A stretch of 64,000 nt of DNA from Methylobacterium nonmethylotrophicum (GTDB lineage: Bacteria > Pseudomonadota > Alphaproteobacteria > Rhizobiales > Beijerinckiaceae): NCBI RefSeq assembly GCF_004745635.1, contig NZ_SRLB01000012.1, forward strand, positions 186,001 to 250,000. Reading direction: 5' to 3'. Under the pieces are notes generated by a model. That model saw nothing but the letters and a program-made list of their open reading frames with translations, had not been told where the DNA came from and did not search any database. The position numbers and the translations under genes were made by a program. The stretch's first letter is position 1, and every line of letters starts with the position of its first letter. This document shows positions 2,940 to 51,184 of the stretch, in pieces.

Positions 2940-3905
2940 AGGGAAGAGATCTTTGTTATATGGAATAATATTTAGATCGGCACATAGGTTTTATTGTAAA
3001 TTAAAGTTTAAATATATTATTTTTTAAGCAGCATATATTGAAGAATGCAAATCTACAATAGTTTCTTTCATTGTTCATATTCACCTCGCGAGTGCCCAAC
3101 ACAAATATTTATACAGTAAGAAATTTCGGTATTGACTGGGTGTTTGTCCATTGTATCCTGACGGCTAAGGAATTATATTTGAAATAGGCGCTGAGATGGA
3201 CTTTGTAATTCATACTTACAAGCTTATAGTTTATGGTCTGACATTTTCATTTTTTGCGCTTGTAGTACTATTGACTGGAGCAGGCAAGGTAAAACATTCA
3301 ATATCTGATCAAGGATTTATTGGAATTAAATATCCAAAAATAAGGCCCTTTTTAAAAAATTTAGCGAATTTGTACGAACTATTTTCGATTCCAGTCGTGA
3401 CTTTGGGAGCTATATATTCTTTTGCCGATATATTTCGAAACGACTTTATCAAGAACAAGATAAGCGATAATATACTATTGATAATTATAATATATTTTAG
3501 CATATTCCTTGGATTTAATGTTATTTCAGTATTTAATATATTGATTTTTAGGGAAAGTAAAAACTTGAAGATTTCATATATTATACTATCGGAAAGAGTT
3601 GGTCGCATGAATCATACTATGCTTGATTTGCTTCGAGTACAAATACAATGTCTCATATTCGTATTTTTACCTTATGTAATTTTCGTCTTATATACAAGCA
3701 ATAGCTACCGCTATAACTCAAAAATTGAAGAGTTTTTATTCTTGTTTTTTTATTTTGTACTATTAATAGTTGCGGTAGAAATTTTGAGACAGAGAACAAA
3801 AAGAGGTCTACTGATTAGAGATTTAGGATATCTACTATCTTCCTTGGCTATAGCTGCATTTCTATTACCAGACGTGAAACTGGCACTGCACAGATGAGAT
3901 GATTC
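2940..3905. other. AT-rich island
   Basis: About 960 bases whose composition drops abruptly to roughly one-third GC, while both flanks are around 70 percent or more. The shift begins right after the ligase stop codon and ends right after the single gene inside. The first 250 bases (2940-3195) are non-coding and full of A/T runs and likely carry the gene's promoter. No transposase, tRNA or direct repeat is visible at the edges. This is a sign of horizontal acquisition by illegitimate recombination. Confidence 0.75.
3196..3897 (+). CDS. AT-rich hypothetical polytopic membrane protein
   Basis: 233 residues encoded in AT-rich codons quite unlike the neighbours. Five or six hydrophobic segments are visible: residues 8-28, 60-80 (FSIPVVTLGAIYSF), 95-115 (ILLIIIIYFSIFLGFNV), 150-165 (CLIFVFLPYVIFVLY), 183-200 (FLFLFFYFVLLIVAVEIL) and 215-228. 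Charged loops separate them. ATG 3196 is the first start after a stop-rich stretch. I do not recognise a family. The composition argues for recent transfer from a low-GC donor. Being in-frame over 700 bases in AT-rich DNA, where stops are frequent, makes it a real gene. Confidence 0.7.
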   Translation: MDFVIHTYKLIVYGLTFSFFALVVLLTGAGKVKHSISDQGFIGIKYPKIRPFLKNLANLYELFSIPVVTLGAIYSFADIFRNDFIKNKISDNILLIIIIYFSIFLGFNVISVFNILIFRESKNLKISYIILSERVGRMNHTMLDLLRVQIQCLIFVFLPYVIFVLYTSNSYRYNSKIEEFLFLFFYFVLLIVAVEILRQRTKRGLLIRDLGYLLSSLAIAAFLLPDVKLALHR

Positions 3906-40368: not shown

Positions 40369-40917
40369 TCACAGCTGCGGCTGGACGGCCCGCAGGATCG
40401 CGGCGGTGCTCTCGATGAAGCGGAGCGCCGCCCGGACCTTCTCGGCCGCCAGCGGCAGGCGGGCGCAGCGGGTCGAGAGGTCGTCCAGCCGGCGCTGCTC
40501 GATGTCGAGGATCTTGAGCGCGTTCGCGACCGCGAAGCGGATCGCGTCCTTGACCGCGGCGTCGTCGCCCGTCTCGACGAGCTGCCCCTCGATGGTGATG
40601 AGCGACTCGTAGCCGCCGAGCTCGTCCGAGATCTGCGTGAGCGCGCGCAGGGTATCGCGGACGCACTCGCCGTCAGCGGCCGGGAGATCGGCGCGCTCGG
40701 CGGTCCGCGCGACGTCGCCCACCACCTCCGCGTAGCGGGGCTTCATCTGGGCGATGGTGGCCCGGTCGGCCTGGCTCAGGATGCGGGCCGAGGCCGGCGG
40801 TCCGGGAAGCATCAGCGCGGCGGCCGCCGCGGCGGCGACCAGGCGCCGCCAGACCGACGACGGAGGCGGCCCTGCGAGGCGGGCGGCGACCGGGGGGAGA
40901 CGGCGTGCGATCGGCAT
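40369..40917 (-). CDS. secreted helical hypothetical protein
   Basis: 182 residues from ATG 40917. Residues 1-45 are an export signal (basic start, then RLVAAAAAAALMLPGPPASA). The mature part is mainly alpha-helical: ILSQADRATIAQMKPRYAEVVGDVARTAERADL, ADGECVRDTLRALTQISDELGGYESLITIEGQL, DAAVKDAIRFAVANALKILDIEQRRLDDLSTRC and AEKVRAALRFIESTAAILRAVQPQL. Two cysteines may pair. It is divergent from the peptide-exporter operon, 154 bases away, and could share its regulation. No family is recognised. Confidence 0.7.
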   Translation of the reverse strand: MPIARRLPPVAARLAGPPPSSVWRRLVAAAAAAALMLPGPPASARILSQADRATIAQMKPRYAEVVGDVARTAERADLPAADGECVRDTLRALTQISDELGGYESLITIEGQLVETGDDAAVKDAIRFAVANALKILDIEQRRLDDLSTRCARLPLAAEKVRAALRFIESTAAILRAVQPQL

Positions 40918-41071
40918 CGCGGTGACTTGTCGAGGACCGGGCACGGACCGCATCCGGCGGCCGCGCACCGTGCTGGCCTTCGCGAGTGTTTCTAATACAC
41001 TTGCCGCGCGGCTTGCCAGTCGGGTCGTCCCATTCGTAAGAGCCTTGCGACCGTGTCCGGGTGGAGATCGC

Positions 41072-42340
41072 ATGAGTTCATCCCCTCAGCCGATCTTCCG
41101 GGCCCGCGCCCTCGAGCGCATGGCCTCGCCCGAGCAGCTCGACCATCTCGTCCGCGTCACCCGGCCGGCCGACTGGGTGCTGGCCGCCGTCATCGCCCTG
41201 GTGCTCGCGACCGCGGTGACCTGGAGCCTGGTCGGGCGGATCCCGACCCGCGCCGCCGGCGAGGGAATCCTGGTCGGCGTCGGCGGCCAGGTGGTCGATG
41301 CCGTCTCGGGCGCCGGCGGCCGCCTCGGCGCGATCGCGGTCGCGGTCGGCGACCGCGTGGCGCAGGGCCAGCCCATCGCCGAGATCGTCCAGAACGAGAT
41401 CGAGCAGCGCTACCGCGGCGCAACCGAGGTGTATCGCGAGCGCGAGCGCGACCACGCCGACCTGAAGGCGAAAATCGCCGGCGAGCTGAAGACCAAGGCG
41501 GCCAACTTCGTCAAGGTCGAGCGGGCCTTCGACCAGATCGTGCAGGCCACCGACCAGCGGATCGACTATCTGTCGACCGAGGTGCGCAACCTCGAGGGCC
41601 TGCTCGCCAAGGGCATCACCACCCGCCGCGCGGTGGAGGACCGCCGTCGCGAGCTGATCGACGCGCGCCAGCGCCGCGAGGACGCCCAGAACGAGCTCCT
41701 GAAGCTCCGGGCGCAGAAGACCGACCTCGAGACGCAGCGCGAGCGCGAGCTGATGGAGTCGCAGTTCCGCCTCAACGAGGCGCGCCGGCAGATGGAGCAG
41801 GTCGGGGCCGAGCTCGGGCGCAACACCCGGGTGGTGAGCCCGATCGCCGGCCGCATCCTCGAGATCAAGGTCTCGCCCGGCTCCGTCCTGGGCGTCGGGA
41901 CCCCGGTCGTCGCGGTCGAGACGGAGGGCCATTCCCTCGAGGCGATCGTCTACATCCCGGCCGACAAGGGCAAGCAGATCCGGCCCGGCATGGAGGCGAG
42001 GCTCGAGCCGAGCACCGTCAAGCGCGAGGAATACGGCACGCTCATCGGCACCGTGATGTCGATCTCCGACTTCCCGATCACCCCGCAGGGCATGCTGGCG
42101 GTGCTCCACAACGACACGCTGGTCTCGCGCTTCTCCCGCGAGGGGGCGCCCTATGCCGCCCTGATCCGCCTGCAGCCGGATCCGGCGACCGCGAGCGGCT
42201 ACCGCTGGGCGGTCGGCCAGGGCCCCGACCAGCGCCTGAGCAGCGGCACCCTGACCCGGGCCGAGATCACGACCCGCGAGCAGCGGCCGCTCGACCTCGC
42301 GCTGCCGATGCTCCGGCGCCTCACCGGCCTGTCCGGCTGA
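41072..42340 (+). CDS. NHLP/NHLM-type bacteriocin system HlyD-family adaptor
   Basis: 422 residues. One N-terminal membrane helix (WVLAAVIALVLATAVTWSLVGRIPT) anchors a periplasmic adaptor. A half-lipoyl motif (AGGRLGAIAVAVGDRVAQGQPIAEI), a long coiled coil (about 100-250), a second half-lipoyl (VVSPIAGRILEIKVSPGSVLGVGTPVVAVE) and a beta-barrel follow. The truncated ending without an outer-membrane-facing extension, and the following two ABC genes, match the NHLM secretion protein family. It couples the inner-membrane ABC pumps to export. It is the first gene of the operon. Confidence 0.85.
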   Translation: MSSSPQPIFRARALERMASPEQLDHLVRVTRPADWVLAAVIALVLATAVTWSLVGRIPTRAAGEGILVGVGGQVVDAVSGAGGRLGAIAVAVGDRVAQGQPIAEIVQNEIEQRYRGATEVYRERERDHADLKAKIAGELKTKAANFVKVERAFDQIVQATDQRIDYLSTEVRNLEGLLAKGITTRRAVEDRRRELIDARQRREDAQNELLKLRAQKTDLETQRERELMESQFRLNEARRQMEQVGAELGRNTRVVSPIAGRILEIKVSPGSVLGVGTPVVAVETEGHSLEAIVYIPADKGKQIRPGMEARLEPSTVKREEYGTLIGTVMSISDFPITPQGMLAVLHNDTLVSRFSREGAPYAALIRLQPDPATASGYRWAVGQGPDQRLSSGTLTRAEITTREQRPLDLALPMLRRLTGLSG

Positions 42341-42344
42341 CGCC

Positions 42345-44546
42345 GTGCCGGGCGCCACCGACCACCCGGCCGGCGCGCGCGCCCCGCGCGACGCGCTCCT
42401 CCTCGGCCGCACCCCGGTGCGGGCGACGCCGGGCGTGCTGCAGATGGAGGCCGTCGAGTGCGGCGCGGCGGCCCTGGCCATCGTGCTGGCCTTCCACGGC
42501 GCCTGGGTGCCGCTCGAGGAGCTGCGCGTCGCCTGCGGCGTCTCGCGCGACGGCAGCACGGCGAGCAACATCGTCAGGGCCGCGCGCGGCTACGGGCTCA
42601 CCGCCAAGGGGTTCCGCCGCGAGCCCGCGACCCTGCGGGAGCTGCCGATGCCCTGCATCCTGCACTGGAACTTCAACCACTTCGTCGTGCTCGAAGGCGT
42701 GCGCGGTGCCCACGCCTTCATCAACGACCCGGCCGAGGGGCGCCGCCGGGTCAGCGCCGAGGAGCTCGACCTCGCCTTCACGGGCGTCGTCCTCACCTTC
42801 GAGCCGAATGCGGAGTTCCGCCGGGTCGGCCGCCGGCCGCAGGGCTGGCGCCTCCTCCTGCGCGAGCTGCGGGGCTCCACCGCGGCGCTCGGCCTCGTCG
42901 CGGCGGTGAGCCTCGCCCTGGTGGTCCCCGGCATCGTCATCCCGGGCCTCACCAAGGTCTTCGTCGACGAGGTGCTGATCCAGGGCGCGACGGGCTGGCT
43001 CGTGCCCCTCCTGATCGGCATGGGCCTCACGGCCCTCCTGCGCGCCGGGGTGACGGCCCTGCAGCTCTCGCTGACGCTGCGGCTGCAGACCAAGCTCGCG
43101 GTCGTGATGACGAGCCGGTTCCTGTGGCACGTGACCCGGCTGCCGATGGCGTTCTTCGCCCAGCGCCATGCCGGCGACATCGCGAGCCGCAACGGGGTCA
43201 ACGAGGACGTCGCCCGCCTGCTCTCGGGCGGGCTCGCCGGCCAGGTGCTCGGCCTCGTCTCCGTCGCCTTCTTCGCCGCCGCGATGGCGGCCTACGACCT
43301 GCCGCTCGCCGGCATCGCGGTCGGCCTCTCCCTCCTCAACCTCGTGGTCCTGCGCCTGATCGGGCGCCGGCGCGAGGACCTGAGCCGCCGCCTCGCGGTC
43401 GAGCGCGGCAAGCTCGTGGCGAGCACCGTCGCGGCGGTGCGCGGCATCGAGACCCTGAAGGCCAACGGCCTCGAGGACGATGCCTTCGGCCACTGGACCG
43501 GGATCCAGGCGCGGGCCCTCAACGCCGAGCAGGCGCTCGGCACCGCGTCCACGCTCCTCGACGTCGCCCCCGCGCTCCTCACCGGCCTGACCACCGCGGC
43601 GATCCTCGGATTCGGCAGCGTGCGGGTGATCGAGGGCGCCCTGACGCTGGGCGGCCTCGTGGCGTTCCAGTCCCTCACCGCGAGCTTCTCCGAGCCGATC
43701 GGCGCCCTCGTCGGGCAGGCGGGCGCCATCCAGGTGGTGCGGGGCGGCCTCGAGCGGCTCGAGGACGTCTACAACTACCCGGTCGACGCCCCCCCGGCAT
43801 CGCCGGCCGAGCCCTCCGCGCCGCGGCTCGGCGGGCGCGTCGAGCTCGTCGGCGTGTCGTTCGGCTACGCGCCGCTCCAGCCGCCGCTCCTGACCGACCT
43901 GTCGCTCACGGTCGAGCCCGGCACCCGCGTGGCGCTGGTCGGCCTCTCGGGCAGCGGCAAGTCGACCCTCGGGCGGCTGATCTGCGGGCTCAACCGGCCC
44001 TGGTCCGGGCAGGTGCTCCTCGACGGCCGGCCCCTCGAGGCGATCCCGCCCGAGGTGTTCGCGAACTCGGTCGCCTATGTCGACCAGGACATCGTGCTGT
44101 TCGAGGGCACGGTGCGGGACAACCTGACGCTGTGGGACCCGACGGTCTCCGAGGCCGACCTCTCCGAGGCGCTGAAGGACGCGGCGATCCACGCCGAGAT
44201 CGTGACCCGGCCGGGCAACTACGACTGCCCCACGATCGAGGGCGGCGCCAATTTCAGCGGCGGCCAGCGCCAGCGGCTGGAGATCGCCCGGGCGCTGGTC
44301 GGCAACCCGGCGGTCCTCGTCCTCGACGAGGCGACGGCCGCCCTCGACCCGGTGACCGAGCGGAGGATCGACGACAACCTGCGCCGGCGCGGCTGCACCT
44401 GCATCATCATCGCCCACCGCCTGAGCACGATCCGCGATTGCGACGAGATCATCGTCCTCGACCGGGGCCGGATCGCCGAGCGCGGCCGCCACGAGGACCT
44501 GATCGCGCAGGCCGGCCTCTACGCCCACCTGGTCGCACAGCGATGA
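42345..44546 (+). CDS. NHLP/NHLM-type peptidase-containing ABC transporter (C39)
   Basis: 733 residues from a GTG four bases after the adaptor gene. Residues 28-150 are a C39 peptidase that removes double-glycine leaders: the Cys in MEAVECGAAALAIVL, the His in NFNHFVVLEG and the Asp in INDPAEGRRRV. Then come six membrane helices and a C-terminal ATPase with Walker A VGLSGSGKST, signature FSGGQRQRLEIARALV, Walker B VLVLDEATAALD and switch His of IAHRLSTI. It both cleaves and exports a peptide. It overlaps the next gene by ATGA. Confidence 0.9.
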   Translation: MPGATDHPAGARAPRDALLLGRTPVRATPGVLQMEAVECGAAALAIVLAFHGAWVPLEELRVACGVSRDGSTASNIVRAARGYGLTAKGFRREPATLRELPMPCILHWNFNHFVVLEGVRGAHAFINDPAEGRRRVSAEELDLAFTGVVLTFEPNAEFRRVGRRPQGWRLLLRELRGSTAALGLVAAVSLALVVPGIVIPGLTKVFVDEVLIQGATGWLVPLLIGMGLTALLRAGVTALQLSLTLRLQTKLAVVMTSRFLWHVTRLPMAFFAQRHAGDIASRNGVNEDVARLLSGGLAGQVLGLVSVAFFAAAMAAYDLPLAGIAVGLSLLNLVVLRLIGRRREDLSRRLAVERGKLVASTVAAVRGIETLKANGLEDDAFGHWTGIQARALNAEQALGTASTLLDVAPALLTGLTTAAILGFGSVRVIEGALTLGGLVAFQSLTASFSEPIGALVGQAGAIQVVRGGLERLEDVYNYPVDAPPASPAEPSAPRLGGRVELVGVSFGYAPLQPPLLTDLSLTVEPGTRVALVGLSGSGKSTLGRLICGLNRPWSGQVLLDGRPLEAIPPEVFANSVAYVDQDIVLFEGTVRDNLTLWDPTVSEADLSEALKDAAIHAEIVTRPGNYDCPTIEGGANFSGGQRQRLEIARALVGNPAVLVLDEATAALDPVTERRIDDNLRRRGCTCIIIAHRLSTIRDCDEIIVLDRGRIAERGRHEDLIAQAGLYAHLVAQR

Positions 44547-47434
44547 ACGAGAGGGTTGTCGAACCCGCCGCGCCCTCCGCCGCGCCCACGGCCCGGATCG
44601 CCCTCGACGGACGCCGGCCCGAGCGGCTCGACGGGCGGGACCGGCCGCTCGTCATCGCCCGCGGCCACGCCGACGTCTTCCTGGTCCCGGCCTCCGGCGA
44701 GGCGCGCCGGCACCTCCTGCGCGCCGAGGCCGGGGACCTCCTCCCGCCGCTGCCGGCCTGGCCCGACGGCGCGAGCCGGATCGTGGCCCTCGGCGTCCCC
44801 GGCACCCTGGCGGAGGAGCCCGACGCCCTGCCGGAGGACCGCCTCGAGGCCTGGATCCTGCGCGTCTCCGCCCTGGTCGTCGGCCTGCATCCGGCCTGGG
44901 AGATGCGCGAGATCGCGGGGGCGCCGGAGCGCCTGGAGCCGGGCGAGCGCCGCCGCGGCCCGGCCCGGTCGGTGCGCTGGGTCGCGGTCACGGCCGGCAC
45001 GGCGCGGCCGATGGGGTGCGGGCCCGATGCGGAGGCCGGCGACCCCTGCATCCCGCTCGCGGCCGGCCTCTGGCTCGAGGCCGGCGACGAGGGCTGCACG
45101 CTCGCGCAGGCCGATCCGCCGACGGGCCCCGCCTTGCACCAGGCGCTCGACCGCTTCCACGCCTGCGCCTTCGCGGGCCTCGCGCAGGCCGAGGCGGCGC
45201 GGCTCGCCGCGGAGCGGGCTCGCCTGGCGCGCCGCCGGCAGGTCGACGCCGCGCGCGCCTCCGACCTCCTCGAGCGGCTCGCCGGGCTGGTGGTGCGCCG
45301 GCGGGCCGCGGGCCGCCCGCTCCGGGACGGCGGCGACGCCCGCGGCGACGCCCACTTCCACGGCGACGCCCTCTTGGCCGCCTGCGACCTCGTCGCCGCG
45401 ACGCTGCCGGCCCGGCTGGCGCGGCGGGCCGGCCGGGCGCGGCGCCCCGAGGAGCCCGAGGATCCCTTCGCGGCGGTGCTCGAGCTGGCCCGGGCCTCGC
45501 GCCTGCGGGTGCGCCGGACGCTACTGCGTGGGGCGTGGTGGCGGGGCGATCAGGGCGCGCTCCTCGCCTGGCACGGGGAGGCCGCCGATCCGGTCGCGCT
45601 GCTGCCGGACCGCCGCGGCTACGTGATGGTCGATCCCGCGAGGGGGCACCGGCGCCGCGTCGACCCGAGCCTCGCGGCCGGGATCGCCCCCGAGGCCGTG
45701 ACCTTCTACGCGACGCTGCCGGCCCGGGTGCTGCGGCTCACCGACCTCCTCGCCTTCGCGGCCGGCCCCGCCCGCGGCAACATCGCCCGTATCGCCCTCG
45801 CGGCGCTGATGCTGGCCGCCCTCGCCCTGGTAGTGCCGCTGATCACCGAGGTGCTGGTCAACTCGGCCGTCCCGCGCAGCCAGCTCGACCAGGTCGCGGT
45901 CTGCGCCGCCGCCCTCGCCGTCGCGGCGATCGCGAGCGCCGCCATCCAGGCGGCCGAGACCCTGGCGATGCTGCGCCTCGAAGGCCTCATCGACTGGACG
46001 CTCCAGGCCGCGCTCATCGACCGGATGCTCAGGCTGCGCGCCGAGCTGTTTCGCGACTACACCGCCGGCGACCTCGTCGGCCGCGTCATGGGCATCGACG
46101 CCGTGCGGCGCGTGCTCACGGGCCAGACCCTGCGCAACCTGCTCGCCGGCCTGTCCTGCGCGATCAGCATCGGGCTGATGCTCTACTACGACGCGCGGCT
46201 CGCCCTCGTGGGCCTGGGCCTCGCGCTCCTGCGCGGCCTTCTCATCGCGGCCGCGGCCGGGTTCCGGCTGCGGCACGAGGGGCGCCACTTCGAGGTCCAG
46301 GGGCGGGAATCGGGCTTCATCCTGCAGCTCTTCGCCGGCATCCCCAAGCTGCGGGTGGCCAACGCGGCGACGCGGGCCCTCGCCGTCTGGTCGGAGCTGT
46401 TTGCCGCCCAGAAGGCGCACCACGTCGCCGCCCAGCGCGTCGCCAACCGCCTCGCCACCGTCGAGGCCGCCTTCCCGACCCTGGCGACGCTCGCGATCTT
46501 CGCGGCCGCGATGCAGGGCGGGAGCAGCCTGACCCGGGATCTCGGCGCGTTCCTGGCCTTCTTCGCGGCCTTCGGCCAGGCCATGGCGCGGATCGGCGCC
46601 TGGGCGAGCGGGATCAGCGAGCTCCTGGTGGCGGTGCCGCACGTCGCGCGCCTGCGCCCGCTGCTCGCCGCCGAGCCCGAGGTGGCGGAGGACCGCAAGC
46701 CGGCCGGCGACCTCACCGGGGCGGTCGAGCTGTCGCGGGTGACGTTCCGGTACGGCGCAGCGGGCCCGCCGGTCCTCGACGACGTGTCGCTCAGCGTGGC
46801 GCCGGGCGAGTACGTGGCGATCGTCGGCCCGTCGGGCGGCGGCAAGTCCTCGCTGTTCCGCCTGCTCCTCGGCTTCGAGCGCCCCGAGGCCGGCGCCGTC
46901 TTCTACGACGACAAGGCCCTCGACACGCTCGACGTCGGCACGGTGCGCCGGCAGCTCGGCGTGGTGCTCCAGAACGGGCGGCTCACCACCGGCAGCCTCT
47001 ACGAGAACATCTGCGGCGGCGTGCCCCTGCCGATGGAGCAGGCGCTCGAGGCCGCCCGCCTCGCCGGGCTCGAGGCCGACATCCAGGCCCTGCCGATGGG
47101 CCTGCACACGATGGTGGCGGAGGGCGTGAACACCTTCTCGGGCGGCCAGCGCCAGCGCCTCCTCATCGCCCGCGCCATCGCGCGGCGCCCGCGGATCCTC
47201 CTGCTCGACGAGGCCACGAGCGCCCTCGACAACGCCTCGCAGGCGGTGGTGAGCGCGTCCCTCGGGGCGCTCAACGTCACCCGGATCGTCATCGCGCACC
47301 GGCTCAGCACCGTGCGGGAGGCGGACCGGATCGTGGTCCTGGTCAACGGGCGCATCGTCCAGTCCGGCCGCTACGCGGAGCTCAGCGCCGCGCCCGGCGT
47401 CTTCGCGCAATTCGCCGAGCGCCAGCTCCTGTAG
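44543..47434 (+). CDS. NHLP/NHLM-type second ABC transporter with large N-terminal domain
   Basis: 963 residues. Residues 1-400 are a soluble family-specific region, beginning with a cupin-like part (RPLVIARGHADVFLVPASGEARRHLLRAEAGDLLPPLP) and continuing through an arginine-rich helical stretch to the GYVMVDPARGHRRRVDP segment seen before the membrane domain of these proteins. Residues 415-690 are the six-helix membrane domain; 700-963 the ATPase: Walker A VGPSGGGKSS, Q-loop VLQNGR, signature FSGGQRQRLLIARAIA, Walker B LLLDEATSALD. It partners the C39 transporter. A candidate cargo gene follows 117 bases later. Confidence 0.88.
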   Translation: MNERVVEPAAPSAAPTARIALDGRRPERLDGRDRPLVIARGHADVFLVPASGEARRHLLRAEAGDLLPPLPAWPDGASRIVALGVPGTLAEEPDALPEDRLEAWILRVSALVVGLHPAWEMREIAGAPERLEPGERRRGPARSVRWVAVTAGTARPMGCGPDAEAGDPCIPLAAGLWLEAGDEGCTLAQADPPTGPALHQALDRFHACAFAGLAQAEAARLAAERARLARRRQVDAARASDLLERLAGLVVRRRAAGRPLRDGGDARGDAHFHGDALLAACDLVAATLPARLARRAGRARRPEEPEDPFAAVLELARASRLRVRRTLLRGAWWRGDQGALLAWHGEAADPVALLPDRRGYVMVDPARGHRRRVDPSLAAGIAPEAVTFYATLPARVLRLTDLLAFAAGPARGNIARIALAALMLAALALVVPLITEVLVNSAVPRSQLDQVAVCAAALAVAAIASAAIQAAETLAMLRLEGLIDWTLQAALIDRMLRLRAELFRDYTAGDLVGRVMGIDAVRRVLTGQTLRNLLAGLSCAISIGLMLYYDARLALVGLGLALLRGLLIAAAAGFRLRHEGRHFEVQGRESGFILQLFAGIPKLRVANAATRALAVWSELFAAQKAHHVAAQRVANRLATVEAAFPTLATLAIFAAAMQGGSSLTRDLGAFLAFFAAFGQAMARIGAWASGISELLVAVPHVARLRPLLAAEPEVAEDRKPAGDLTGAVELSRVTFRYGAAGPPVLDDVSLSVAPGEYVAIVGPSGGGKSSLFRLLLGFERPEAGAVFYDDKALDTLDVGTVRRQLGVVLQNGRLTTGSLYENICGGVPLPMEQALEAARLAGLEADIQALPMGLHTMVAEGVNTFSGGQRQRLLIARAIARRPRILLLDEATSALDNASQAVVSASLGALNVTRIVIAHRLSTVREADRIVVLVNGRIVQSGRYAELSAAPGVFAQFAERQLL

Positions 47435-47551
47435 GGCCGGCCGACGGGCCGCGTCCGCGCGGGCAGCCCCGCGCGGCCCGGCACATCCGTCCGGCGGGAG
47501 CCGTCGTACCGATGGCCCCGTCAACGGCACAGGCGGCCGCGGAGACTGGCG

Positions 47552-47696
47552 ATGCTCAAGATCGTCAAGGAAGGCATCGTCCGACCGCAAGCCGGCGTCC
47601 GACGCGCCGGCCCTCGCGGACGCGGCCTTGTCCCGGGCCTCCGGCGGCCTGAACCCGCAGCCGCTGCCGCCGCGCCGGGGCGGGCGCGGCCTCTGA
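47552..47696 (+). pseudogene. frameshifted candidate double-glycine precursor peptide (LNPQPLPP type)
   Basis: ATG 47552 has GGAG seven bases upstream and begins MLKIVKE. After the GAAGGC at 47570-47575 the coding signal jumps one base: every codon from TCG (47577) to the TGA at 47694-47696 ends in G or C, while the ATG frame loses that bias at once. Removing one G restores a 47-residue peptide. It has a polar leader (SSDRKPASDAPALADAALS), then RASGG, then LNPQPLPPRRGGRGL. The double glycine is where the upstream C39 transporter would cut, giving a 15-residue proline/arginine-rich product. Position, leader shape and terminator support a cargo role. The frameshift could be mutation, sequencing error or recoding. 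Confidence 0.6.
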
Positions 47697-47779
47697 GGCG
47701 CCTGCCGCCGGCCGTGCACGGCCGGTGCCGGCCGCCGATCAGGGCCGGCGCTCCGACGCGATCGGACGACGCTCCATCA

Positions 47780-47815
47780 CCGAACGGCCTCGCGCGAGCG
47801 GGGCCGTTCGGTTTT
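47780..47815 (+). terminator. intrinsic terminator of the peptide-exporter operon
   Basis: Stem CCGAACGGCC (47780-47789) with GGCCGTTCGG (47802-47811), 10 perfect pairs around a 12-base loop, then TTTT. It lies 84 bases after the precursor-like frame, consistent with that frame being the last gene of the operon. Confidence 0.85.
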
Positions 47816-49075: not shown

Positions 49076-50749
49076 CTACCGCAGGTCCTGCCAGCCGGTG
49101 CCGATGACCGGCAGGTCGAGCGTCGCGGCGTGCTCGGCATCCATCGCGATCGACCAGGTGTTGGGAACCGGGTTCTTGCCGGGTCCCTGCGGGAAGGGCA
49201 GCCCGGCCGGCGGCTCCGCCCCGCCGGCGACCGCCAGCCGCATTCGGTGCCCGGCCCCGAACACGTAGGCGACCGGATAGAGGTCGAGGTCGTAGCGCCT
49301 CAATTCCCCGGGGGTGAGCGGCGTCGGGGCGGCCTGGAGGTCGGGCGCGTGGCGCGCGTTGAGGTAGCCCTGCATCACCTGCCGCGACGTCCCGTCGGGC
49401 GCCACGTCGTTGAGGCTGACGACGAGGTCGGCATCCGGCGCGCTCGCGCTCGCCCAGAGCGAGATGCGGGGATAGCCGGTCACCTCGGTCGCCGCCGCGA
49501 GCGGTGCCGTCGTCCATGTCGCGACCTTCGCCTCGACGGTGCGCTGGTCCTGCACCGACCGGCCCTTGGTGGCGCTGAGCAGCACGGGCAGGAACGGGCC
49601 CGTCTCGGGGGAATAGGCCACCGTGACCGGCTCGCCGGCGGCCTGCTGCGTCGTGAGCGAGCCGTCGTTCAGGCTCTGCGCGGAGCCGCTGCGCTGGCCC
49701 GAGAGGAAGAGCCGGGTCGGGTGGGCGTCCGGCAGCGGCCAGTCCGCCTCGAAGCGCCAGCGGTTCGCCCCCTTGACGTAGAGCATGACGCGCGCGCCCG
49801 TGTCGGCCCCGTTCGCCGCGTCCTTGAGCCAGCGGTCGAGCCACTGGACCTGCAGTTCCTGGATCAGCCCGATATGCCAGCCATGCGCGTAGGGGCCGAA
49901 GAACAGGCGCTTCCGCGCGCCCGCGCCGAGCTGGGTGTAGAGGCGCAGAGCGGCGGGCGAGATGTAGTCGTCCTGGCCGCCCGCGACGAAGACCGCGACC
50001 CCGCGCTTCCCGATCTCGGCGGCCGCCTCGGCCAGGGTCGTGCGGGCCTTCCACCAGGCGTCGAAATCGGGATGCGCGATGGCGGTGGCGTACTCGGCCT
50101 CCGCCCCCGGCGACAGCTTGCGCGCCTCCCGCCCCGGCCCGGGCCGCATGCCGCCCGGATACCACAGCGCCCCGTAGCAGTCGCCGCAGGCGACCTCCGG
50201 GACGATGGCCCTGAGGTGCGGCGGCGCCTCCTTGGCGGCGAGCCACTGGCTGATGCCGAGGAGCGAGGGGCCGACCATGCCGACGCGGCCGTTGCACCAG
50301 GGCTGCGCCGCCATCCACTCGACGGCGTCGTACCCGTCCTCGCCGAAATGGGCGTAGAGGTCCGCCTTGCCCTCGGACTTCCCCGATCCGCGCAGCGACA
50401 GGTGAAGGACCGCGTAGCCGCGGCTGGCGATGTCGAAGAGCGGACCGTCGAAGGACGCGCCGGTGTTGCTCGCCCGTCCGTAGCCGTCGGTCATCAGCAC
50501 GCAGGGCGTCGCCGTCTCGCCCGAGGCGAGCGCGGGTCGGAACAGGCGGCCCTCGAGCCGCACGCCGTCCCGCGCGGTCACGATCACCCCGTCCTCGAGG
50601 GTGATGGGGTAGCGCCTGATCGGGTTCTCGGCGGTCGGCGCCTCCGGCAGCCATCGGCGGCCCTCGGTGCCGGCCCCGACCGGGAAGACGTCCGCCCGGA
50701 CGGACGCCGCAAGGCACAGGGCGACGGCCCCGATCACCCACCTGACCAT
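49076..50749 (-). CDS. CocE/NonD-family alpha/beta hydrolase, exported
   Basis: 557 residues with a signal peptide (MVRWVIGAVALCLAASVRA) after ATG 50749, preceded by GGGAGG. Residues 50-330 form the X-Pro dipeptidyl-peptidase/CocE alpha/beta-hydrolase core: VTARDGVRLEGRLFRP, VLMTDGYGR, nucleophile Ser in MVGPSLLGISQWLAA, an Asp near GGQDDY and a His in GPYAHGWH. The last 200 residues are a jelly-roll (TVAYSPETGPFLP, YPRISLWASASAPDADLVVSLNDVAPDG, MRLAVAGG). The family cleaves ester or amide bonds of acyl compounds. The substrate is unknown. Confidence 0.88.
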   Translation of the reverse strand: MVRWVIGAVALCLAASVRADVFPVGAGTEGRRWLPEAPTAENPIRRYPITLEDGVIVTARDGVRLEGRLFRPALASGETATPCVLMTDGYGRASNTGASFDGPLFDIASRGYAVLHLSLRGSGKSEGKADLYAHFGEDGYDAVEWMAAQPWCNGRVGMVGPSLLGISQWLAAKEAPPHLRAIVPEVACGDCYGALWYPGGMRPGPGREARKLSPGAEAEYATAIAHPDFDAWWKARTTLAEAAAEIGKRGVAVFVAGGQDDYISPAALRLYTQLGAGARKRLFFGPYAHGWHIGLIQELQVQWLDRWLKDAANGADTGARVMLYVKGANRWRFEADWPLPDAHPTRLFLSGQRSGSAQSLNDGSLTTQQAAGEPVTVAYSPETGPFLPVLLSATKGRSVQDQRTVEAKVATWTTAPLAAATEVTGYPRISLWASASAPDADLVVSLNDVAPDGTSRQVMQGYLNARHAPDLQAAPTPLTPGELRRYDLDLYPVAYVFGAGHRMRLAVAGGAEPPAGLPFPQGPGKNPVPNTWSIAMDAEHAATLDLPVIGTGWQDLR

Positions 50750-51184
50750 GCCAACCTCCCGCGCCCGACGCCGACCTCTTGGCGGATCGGCATCCTCCGT
50801 CGGCACCCGAGACCCGACCTTCAGCCCCGCCGGCAGCCGCCGAGCGGGGCATTTCGGCCATGTCGTCCGACTTGTCGCGTATGCTCTCACAAGAGACTGC
50901 AGCCCGGTCAAGCCACTCTCCGAAAATGGCTCCGCATGACTCCTTGCAAGCTATCCAGACCACTCATCGGCCAGGCCAATGTCGTCATGCCTCGTCCAGA
51001 ATTCTGAGAAAGCAGGAGCATCCGGTTGAGTGTAATATTCAAGTAATTGAATTGGTTTATAATCAGAATTATTATATCTCGTCTCGAAATATCAATTTAT
51101 CTGGCTGTCGCCTATGGAAACCGGTAGCCGAGGCTCTCTCTGAGCGCAGGCTATCCGGTCCGCAACGCCCGCCGACTCGCGCAG
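50750..51184. other. non-coding gap with AT-rich patch
   Basis: 435 bases between the hydrolase start and the nucleotidyltransferase stop, both leftward. 51020-51110 is strikingly AT-rich (GTAATATTCAAGTAATTGAA and TATAATCAGAATTATTATA). It marks the shift into the lower-GC nucleotidyltransferase gene. No RNA or terminator with a clean T-run is seen. Confidence 0.5.

Follow-up and report, generated by a model that had tools for sequence, protein, structure and literature searches.

A probable frame-shifted gene for a double-glycine-leader peptide downstream of an NHLM exporter in Methylobacterium nonmethylotrophicum

Does the short stretch that follows an NHLM-type exporter in Methylobacterium nonmethylotrophicum encode an exported peptide, and what is to be made of a reading frame that appears to be interrupted by a single base? 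We analysed a window of 64,000 nucleotides (contig NZ_SRLB01000012.1, positions 186,001 to 250,000, from an assembly of 7.83 Mb in 102 contigs), in which an initial annotation made from the letters alone had proposed such a gene at 47552..47696 of the plus strand; all coordinates of this locus refer to the window, and G, C and L numbers denote genomes, contigs and loci in our collections. The proposed interpretation was largely supported. Taken as a whole, the locus is very probably best explained as a frame-shifted copy of a double-glycine-leader peptide gene whose product would belong to the exporter encoded upstream.

The exporter consists of three plus-strand genes in one cluster, each above its curated NCBIfam cut-off: a membrane-fusion protein (NHLM_micro_HlyD, 41054..42340; TIGR03794, 297.5 bits against a cut-off of 156.2), a protein combining C39 peptidase, permease and ATPase (NHLM_micro_ABC1, 42345..44546; TIGR03796, 1033.9 bits against 853.3, and Peptidase_C39), and a second permease/ATPase (NHLM_micro_ABC2, 44546..47434; TIGR03797, 845.6 bits against 709.4). 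The start codons of the first and last are provisional. This combination defines the NHLM export system and bears out the NHLP-type exporter that the initial annotation had placed upstream of the peptide; the NCBIfam models concerned are annotated as bacteriocin export. A divergent gene on the minus strand (40369..41073, start codon provisional), here called acc, encodes a predicted exported helical protein with two conserved cysteines. From the stop of ABC2, 117 bases lead to ATG 47552, which is preceded at a distance of 7 bases by a Shine-Dalgarno-like GGAG (47541..47544, plus strand), both as originally described.

The ATG frame is open until 47938, while the frame one base over is open to a TGA at 47694-47696 and reads ...ASSDRKPASDAPALADAALSRASGGLNPQPLPPRRGGRGL up to that stop. 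The N-terminal part of the gene thus lies in the ATG frame and the remainder in the shifted one, where the coding signal had been said to continue. Third-position G+C is 0.97 in the shifted frame from 47574 versus 0.75 in the ATG frame, so that the claim of G or C at all third bases is nearly, but not quite, correct. The shifted frame holds ...LADAALSRASGGLNPQPLPPRRGGRGL and ends in ...LADAALSRASGG/LNPQPLPPRRGGRGL, split at a Gly-Gly site (47643..47648) after whose second glycine a C39 peptidase is predicted to cut. The predicted core, LNPQPLPPRRGGRGL, has 15 residues (47649..47693) and includes the LNPQPLPP that is common to intact relatives. About 80 bases 3' of the peptide stop, hairpin computation finds 15 pairs followed by TTTG (47779..47812, plus strand), a possible terminator. 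The terminator described as perfect is borne out only in part: the T run of this hairpin is short and a consensus terminator scan did not call it. A gene for an X-Pro dipeptidyl-peptidase of the S15 family (49076-50911, minus strand) lies downstream of the proline-rich peptide. As a candidate processing enzyme it was rejected: it is absent from 18 of 18 related loci compared by tblastn, and its position is probably coincidental.

Alignment of the DNA with three intact relatives (M. variabile, M. terricola and a paralogue on contig C59 of the same genome) shows the ATG and first codons conserved, with the start of the window gene homologous to the MLKIFKK... of the intact forms. The window is one base longer than all three near codons 6-8, just after ATCNTCAA, which puts the extra base within the stretch where a surplus G had been suspected. 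The locus therefore has no intact reading frame, and as assembled this copy cannot give the peptide. It may be a young pseudogene beside three intact paralogues in the genome, or the extra base may be an assembly error, in which case the living cell has an intact gene; we rate the second possibility only slightly below an even chance, and it is compatible with the overall explanation since it concerns the window copy only. The change is a single base, LNPQPLPP and the Gly-Gly are intact, and an exporter gene of M. variabile (ABC1, L084, near 14801) likewise seems to be disrupted by a single base in that species' draft assembly. Against an error, the window copy has five differences of its own across 31 codons at the Gly-Gly: four are non-synonymous and none falls in a third position, compared with non-synonymous to synonymous ratios of 1:2, 4:5 and 3:3 in the other three sequences; one of the four turns Trp to Arg directly after PPR. 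These differences hint at relaxed constraint or decay of the window copy, although five sites are far too few to tell decay from an assembly error. A programmed frameshift, in which ribosomal slippage at a genuine extra base would still yield the peptide, is very improbable: the strong third-position signal does persist past the shift, but three relatives encode a like peptide without one, and inspection by eye revealed no recognised slippery site. A second damaged copy was seen in Bradyrhizobium, where a GGLNPQPLPP peptide (L051, about 3300-3450) has a stop codon within its leader; the same genome holds an intact copy (L056) with identical core and tail.

Homologues in the shifted frame, the subject of a tblastn check set beforehand, were found in relatives as intact open reading frames, and the reading thereby passed the refutation tests proposed on relatives. 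With the Gly-Gly not demanded, LNPQPLPP occurs at 12 places in 8 of 111 Methylobacterium genomes. Four of the places are in the genome studied here, which has intact paralogues on contigs C59, C15 and C47; the reversed control pattern gave 0 matches in the 111 genomes. Gly-Gly precedes the motif at all 12 places, directly at 11 and with two residues between at one. In a collection of named genomes, exact GGLNPQPLPP was found in 25 stretches from several phyla. The alphaproteobacterial ones come from Methylobacterium, Bradyrhizobium, a further Hyphomicrobiales MAG, Rhodoplanes, Acidisphaera, Rhodopila and other MAGs, and the rest from Acidobacteriota (Acidiferrales, Bryobacterales), Hyalangium, cyanobacteria, Dictyobacter, Opitutaceae and Eremiobacterota. 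Identity of the core across these stretches follows from the search pattern. A leucine five residues before the Gly-Gly, which the pattern did not demand, is present in the window and in 23 of the 25 loci, the exceptions being an Opitutaceae leader ending in KGG (L060) and a cyanobacterial leader (L063). This count takes in all 25 loci, including the five omitted from our alignment A1: L051 and L059 (both lacking an in-frame ATG), L058, L060 (unusual leader shape) and L070. These short reading frames, with leucine near -5 and Gly-Gly before the core, fit the sequence definition of a double-glycine-leader peptide. Two of the double-glycine peptides, one from Hyalangium (L053) and one from Eremiobacterota (L061), hold the LNPQPLPP-type motif twice. 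High G+C DNA yields many spurious open frames, and a non-coding stretch might by chance read GGLNPQPLPP; the homologues refute that reading, to which we give practically no weight, as the same ten residues stand in intact frames of several genomes, the M. variabile locus is syntenic and the control pattern is empty.

The family is rare: a profile search of 369 genomes sampled across the phylum (E <= 1e-4) matched the own genome and 0 of the 368 others. Searched with the DNA of the locus, 40 relatives gave no more than short pieces apart from the own genome, and the peptides matched nothing in a plasmid collection (tblastn) and no viral contig. Profile searches of the PDB with the peptides gave no significant match, the nearest being a Nif11 chain (E 0.022), an NHLP leader chain (0.4) and chains of WWP1, NEDD4 and PDCD6IP (0.11-0.99). 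No Pfam or NCBIfam model exceeded its cut-off for the nine homologues scanned, and LNPQP-type strings, including NPQPLPP, were not found in the open-licence PubMed Central papers searched. LNPQPLPP-core peptides look like an undescribed family of secreted peptides, as far as sequence can tell.

How far the family departs from described systems can be judged part by part. Double-glycine peptides of C39 exporters are already known, and Haft, Basu and Mitchell (2010, PMC2887384) report that the NHLM exporter is distributed more widely than the nitrile-hydratase-like peptides (NHLP) behind its name and that it could point the way to additional families of peptides, of which the present cargo would be one; some NHLM exporters would, on that distribution, lack a known cargo. 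The NHLP/N11P systems described there share with the present one the three-gene exporter (TIGR03794, TIGR03796, TIGR03797), the Gly-Gly motif and precursors that either adjoin the exporter or are dispersed over the genome. By comparison, the Methylobacterium leaders differ in being about 25-55 residues long without nitrile-hydratase or Nif11 homology, the core lacks cysteine in the Methylobacterium members read, and reading of the loci showed no gene for TOMM or LanM modification. Scans of nine homologues against NCBIfam and Pfam gave no match to the NHLP or Nif11 precursor models, in agreement with the initial statement that the leader is of neither kind. The homologues share the LSxxELxxVxGG shape with the leaders of generic bacteriocins and pheromones of the double-glycine kind (TIGR01847, TIGR03949, PF10439, NF046113); some members show weak sub-threshold matches to these models, chiefly on the leader, and 0 of the 9 reach a curated cut-off. 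Of the suggested new class of exported proline-rich peptide, then, it is the core that is new, while the leader is of the ordinary double-glycine type.

The link to the exporter goes beyond the window. At seven loci, located by tblastn of the exporter genes, no more than about 1.1 kb separates the peptide from a gene of the exporter, and all seven exporters belong to one sub-group: those of the window, G001, M. variabile, M. terricola, M. crusticola, Rhodoplanes Cfx2-03 and Bradyrhizobium MAG REEB70. Several homologues thus do adjoin NHLM exporters, the second check that had been proposed. M. variabile keeps the window order HlyD-ABC1-ABC2-peptide with the peptide intact and with 92%, 92% and 82% identity in the three exporter proteins; in M. 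terricola, unlike the window, the peptide precedes HlyD, and in MAG REEB70 it stands beside acc and HlyD. TIGR03796 exceeds its cut-off in 18 of the 111 genus genomes, and all 8 genomes with LNPQPLPP are among those 18 (Fisher p = 9.9e-8, kinship ignored). The 20 exporters of the genus separate, in a two-way grouping made after seeing the data, into eight with 69-92% identity to the window ABC1 (the window included) and twelve with 46-51%; with all 20 compared, the first sub-group is found in exactly the 8 peptide genomes. In the 46-51% group, 10 of the 12 exporters had other double-glycine frames nearby, judged by eye.

Outside the genus we compared 18 further named peptide genomes, one locus each, leaving out of the 25 stretches the five from Methylobacterium together with L052 and L056, which share genomes with L049 and L051. 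TIGR03796 exceeds its cut-off in 8 of the 18; at a looser limit 16 of 18 match, yet 6 of 14 controls do too, so that limit is unspecific. Five of the 18 (Hyphomicrobiales, Bradyrhizobium or Rhodoplanes) have an exporter of the sub-group with 64-70% identity to the window, counting G503, whose exporter gene is cut by a contig end and scores below the cut-off. Three alphaproteobacterial MAGs with the peptide (L058, L069, L070) have no NHLM ABC1 over the cut-off. A more distant C39-ABC gene lies nearby in Acidisphaera and in L069 (34% and 32% identical, respectively). Many peptide genes are orphans: ones with no exporter within the stretch read occur on the own contigs C59, C15 and C47 and in G064, G077 (twice) and G078.

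Nor does the exporter sub-group seem to serve this peptide alone. Among 397 genomes of the order, 22 have TIGR03796 over the cut-off, and in three of the order genomes (G222, G431, G479) a window-type exporter adjoins double-glycine peptides with other cores. G479 has a double-glycine peptide with LNPQPLPP elsewhere in its genome (L132), G431 has no match to NPQP[LIMVF]PP, and the one match in G222 is in a long frame without a double-glycine leader (L135). A Bradyrhizobium CB82 plasmid likewise combines a sub-group exporter and an acc-like protein with other double-glycine cargo. Such cargo indicates that the exporter is not dedicated to LNPQPLPP, which, judged from these gene neighbourhoods, is one predicted cargo among others of the sub-group. 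At L036 (2658-4101, minus strand) three further peptides, which we take to be Nif11-leader-like, lie beside an exporter that adjoins an LNPQPLPP peptide, and this exporter may carry both kinds.

The acc protein matches no Pfam or NCBIfam model. It was found in 7 of the 111 genus genomes, all with the peptide, and in 4 of the 397 order genomes, next to the exporter, these being the own genome (counted in both tallies) and G222, G431 and G479, which belong to a single other genus. For six of the seven genus genomes the distance of acc to ABC1 is 1.5-1.6 kb, HlyD being placed between the two; in G001 acc adjoins HlyD and is 5.7 kb away from ABC1. M. terricola (G124), the eighth peptide genome, has peptide and exporter and no acc match. 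Beyond its two conserved cysteines, inspection by eye suggests that acc has an export signal, and its AlphaFold2 model is all-helical (mean pLDDT 80.6, pTM 0.67), resembling helical bundles in the PDB with no match at E <= 0.001. The gene mostly travels with the exporter sub-group of the window. It is probably an exporter accessory, with immunity as the alternative.

What might the peptide do? We infer that in an intact copy a leader of the form LSDxxLxxVxGG would be a substrate for the C39 domain of NHLM_ABC1, which would cut behind the Gly-Gly, and that a short proline-rich peptide starting LNPQPLPP would leave the cell through ABC1/ABC2 and the HlyD-like fusion protein. No modification enzymes were noticed on reading the loci. 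Tentatively, and with well under even confidence, we suggest that the core adopts polyproline-II structure and works extracellularly, its target being not the ribosome but a partner that it meets as an unmodified ligand or signal. A broader pattern gives some context: NPQP[LIMVF]PP has 45 matches in 30 of the 397 order genomes, same-protein repeats included, against 9 for the reversed control. One match per genome (30) was read, and four more in other stretches; among the 30, several appear to be chance matches or to lie in other frames, and several belong to long proteins. Small proteins with signal-peptide-like starts (by eye) occur at L106, L111 and L114. Repeats of [FLI]NPQPxPP were seen in two small proteins, with four copies in L106 (G370:C43) and eight in L108 (G351:C5); in the plasmid collection (tblastn) the eight-copy protein has one weak match, in Borrelia, and the four-copy protein two weak matches. 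Export of this core thus seems not to be confined to a single route, and for that reason we tentatively prefer an extracellular polyproline ligand to a toxin. More speculatively, and we consider this doubtful, LNPQPLPP or loosely NPQPxPP might be a conserved extracellular recognition motif of unrelated bacteria, a polyproline ligand and not a toxin, displayed singly or in tandem (up to eight copies) and exported by NHLM or other C39 exporters with double-glycine leaders or by Sec with signal peptides.

Two antimicrobial readings compete with the ligand. The core is short, cationic and proline-rich, its exporter is annotated for bacteriocins, and NPQPLPPR resembles the apidaecin segment IPQPRPPH given in PMC7736402; the core could be a bacterially made proline-rich antimicrobial peptide (PrAMP) that, like apidaecin or oncocin, gets into other bacteria and inhibits their ribosomes. 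Two further papers place the C-terminal pharmacophore of apidaecin in PRPPHPRL (PMC11549390) and describe P11, R12, R17 and L18 as nearly unmutated in active variants (PMC11347161). The likeness to the insect peptides is confined to short, cationic chains and, for apidaecin, a PQPxPP stretch: the LNPQPLPP core lacks PRPPHPRL and is thus not of the apidaecin-like Type II, lacks the Pro-Arg-Pro by which PMC7736402 marks the oncocin-like Type I, and is made in bacteria with a double-glycine leader. Other bacteria also have the motif in proteins with signal-peptide-like starts and in tandem copies, and we consider a PrAMP aimed at the ribosome unlikely. A bacteriocin or growth inhibitor of the ordinary sort, directed at some other target and with acc giving self-protection, has somewhat more in its favour and is possible, if not probable: a double-glycine leader with a C39 exporter is consistent with it, as is a predicted exported helical protein that stands beside the sub-group exporter wherever it was found. 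However, acc is found as well with exporters whose cargo is of a very different kind, and it has no match in M. terricola, which makes cargo-specific immunity doubtful. Bacteriocin cores usually diversify, whereas LNPQPLPP is the same across phyla, a sameness partly imposed by the search pattern.

One sub-group of NHLM exporters gains a defined candidate cargo and an unclassified helical partner protein. Intact copies are available in the named strains M. variabile DSM 16961, M. terricola and M. crusticola. That unrelated leaders from several phyla should precede one and the same core of eight residues is unusual, and it makes the function of this core directly testable with a short synthetic peptide.

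Further double-glycine reading frames were seen in several of the regions read. On the own contig C47 another such frame (LDDRELDQVTGG; L035, 5064-5267, minus strand) lies about 4.3 kb from the LNPQPLPP paralogue, and in M. terricola four more (L085, 7207-9126) stand upstream of the LNPQPLPP peptide and the exporter. Some exporters of the 46-51% group (group B; L097, L102, L103, L105) adjoin another double-glycine family, marked by GHWDHSGKxSMW after Gly-Gly or Gly-Ala.
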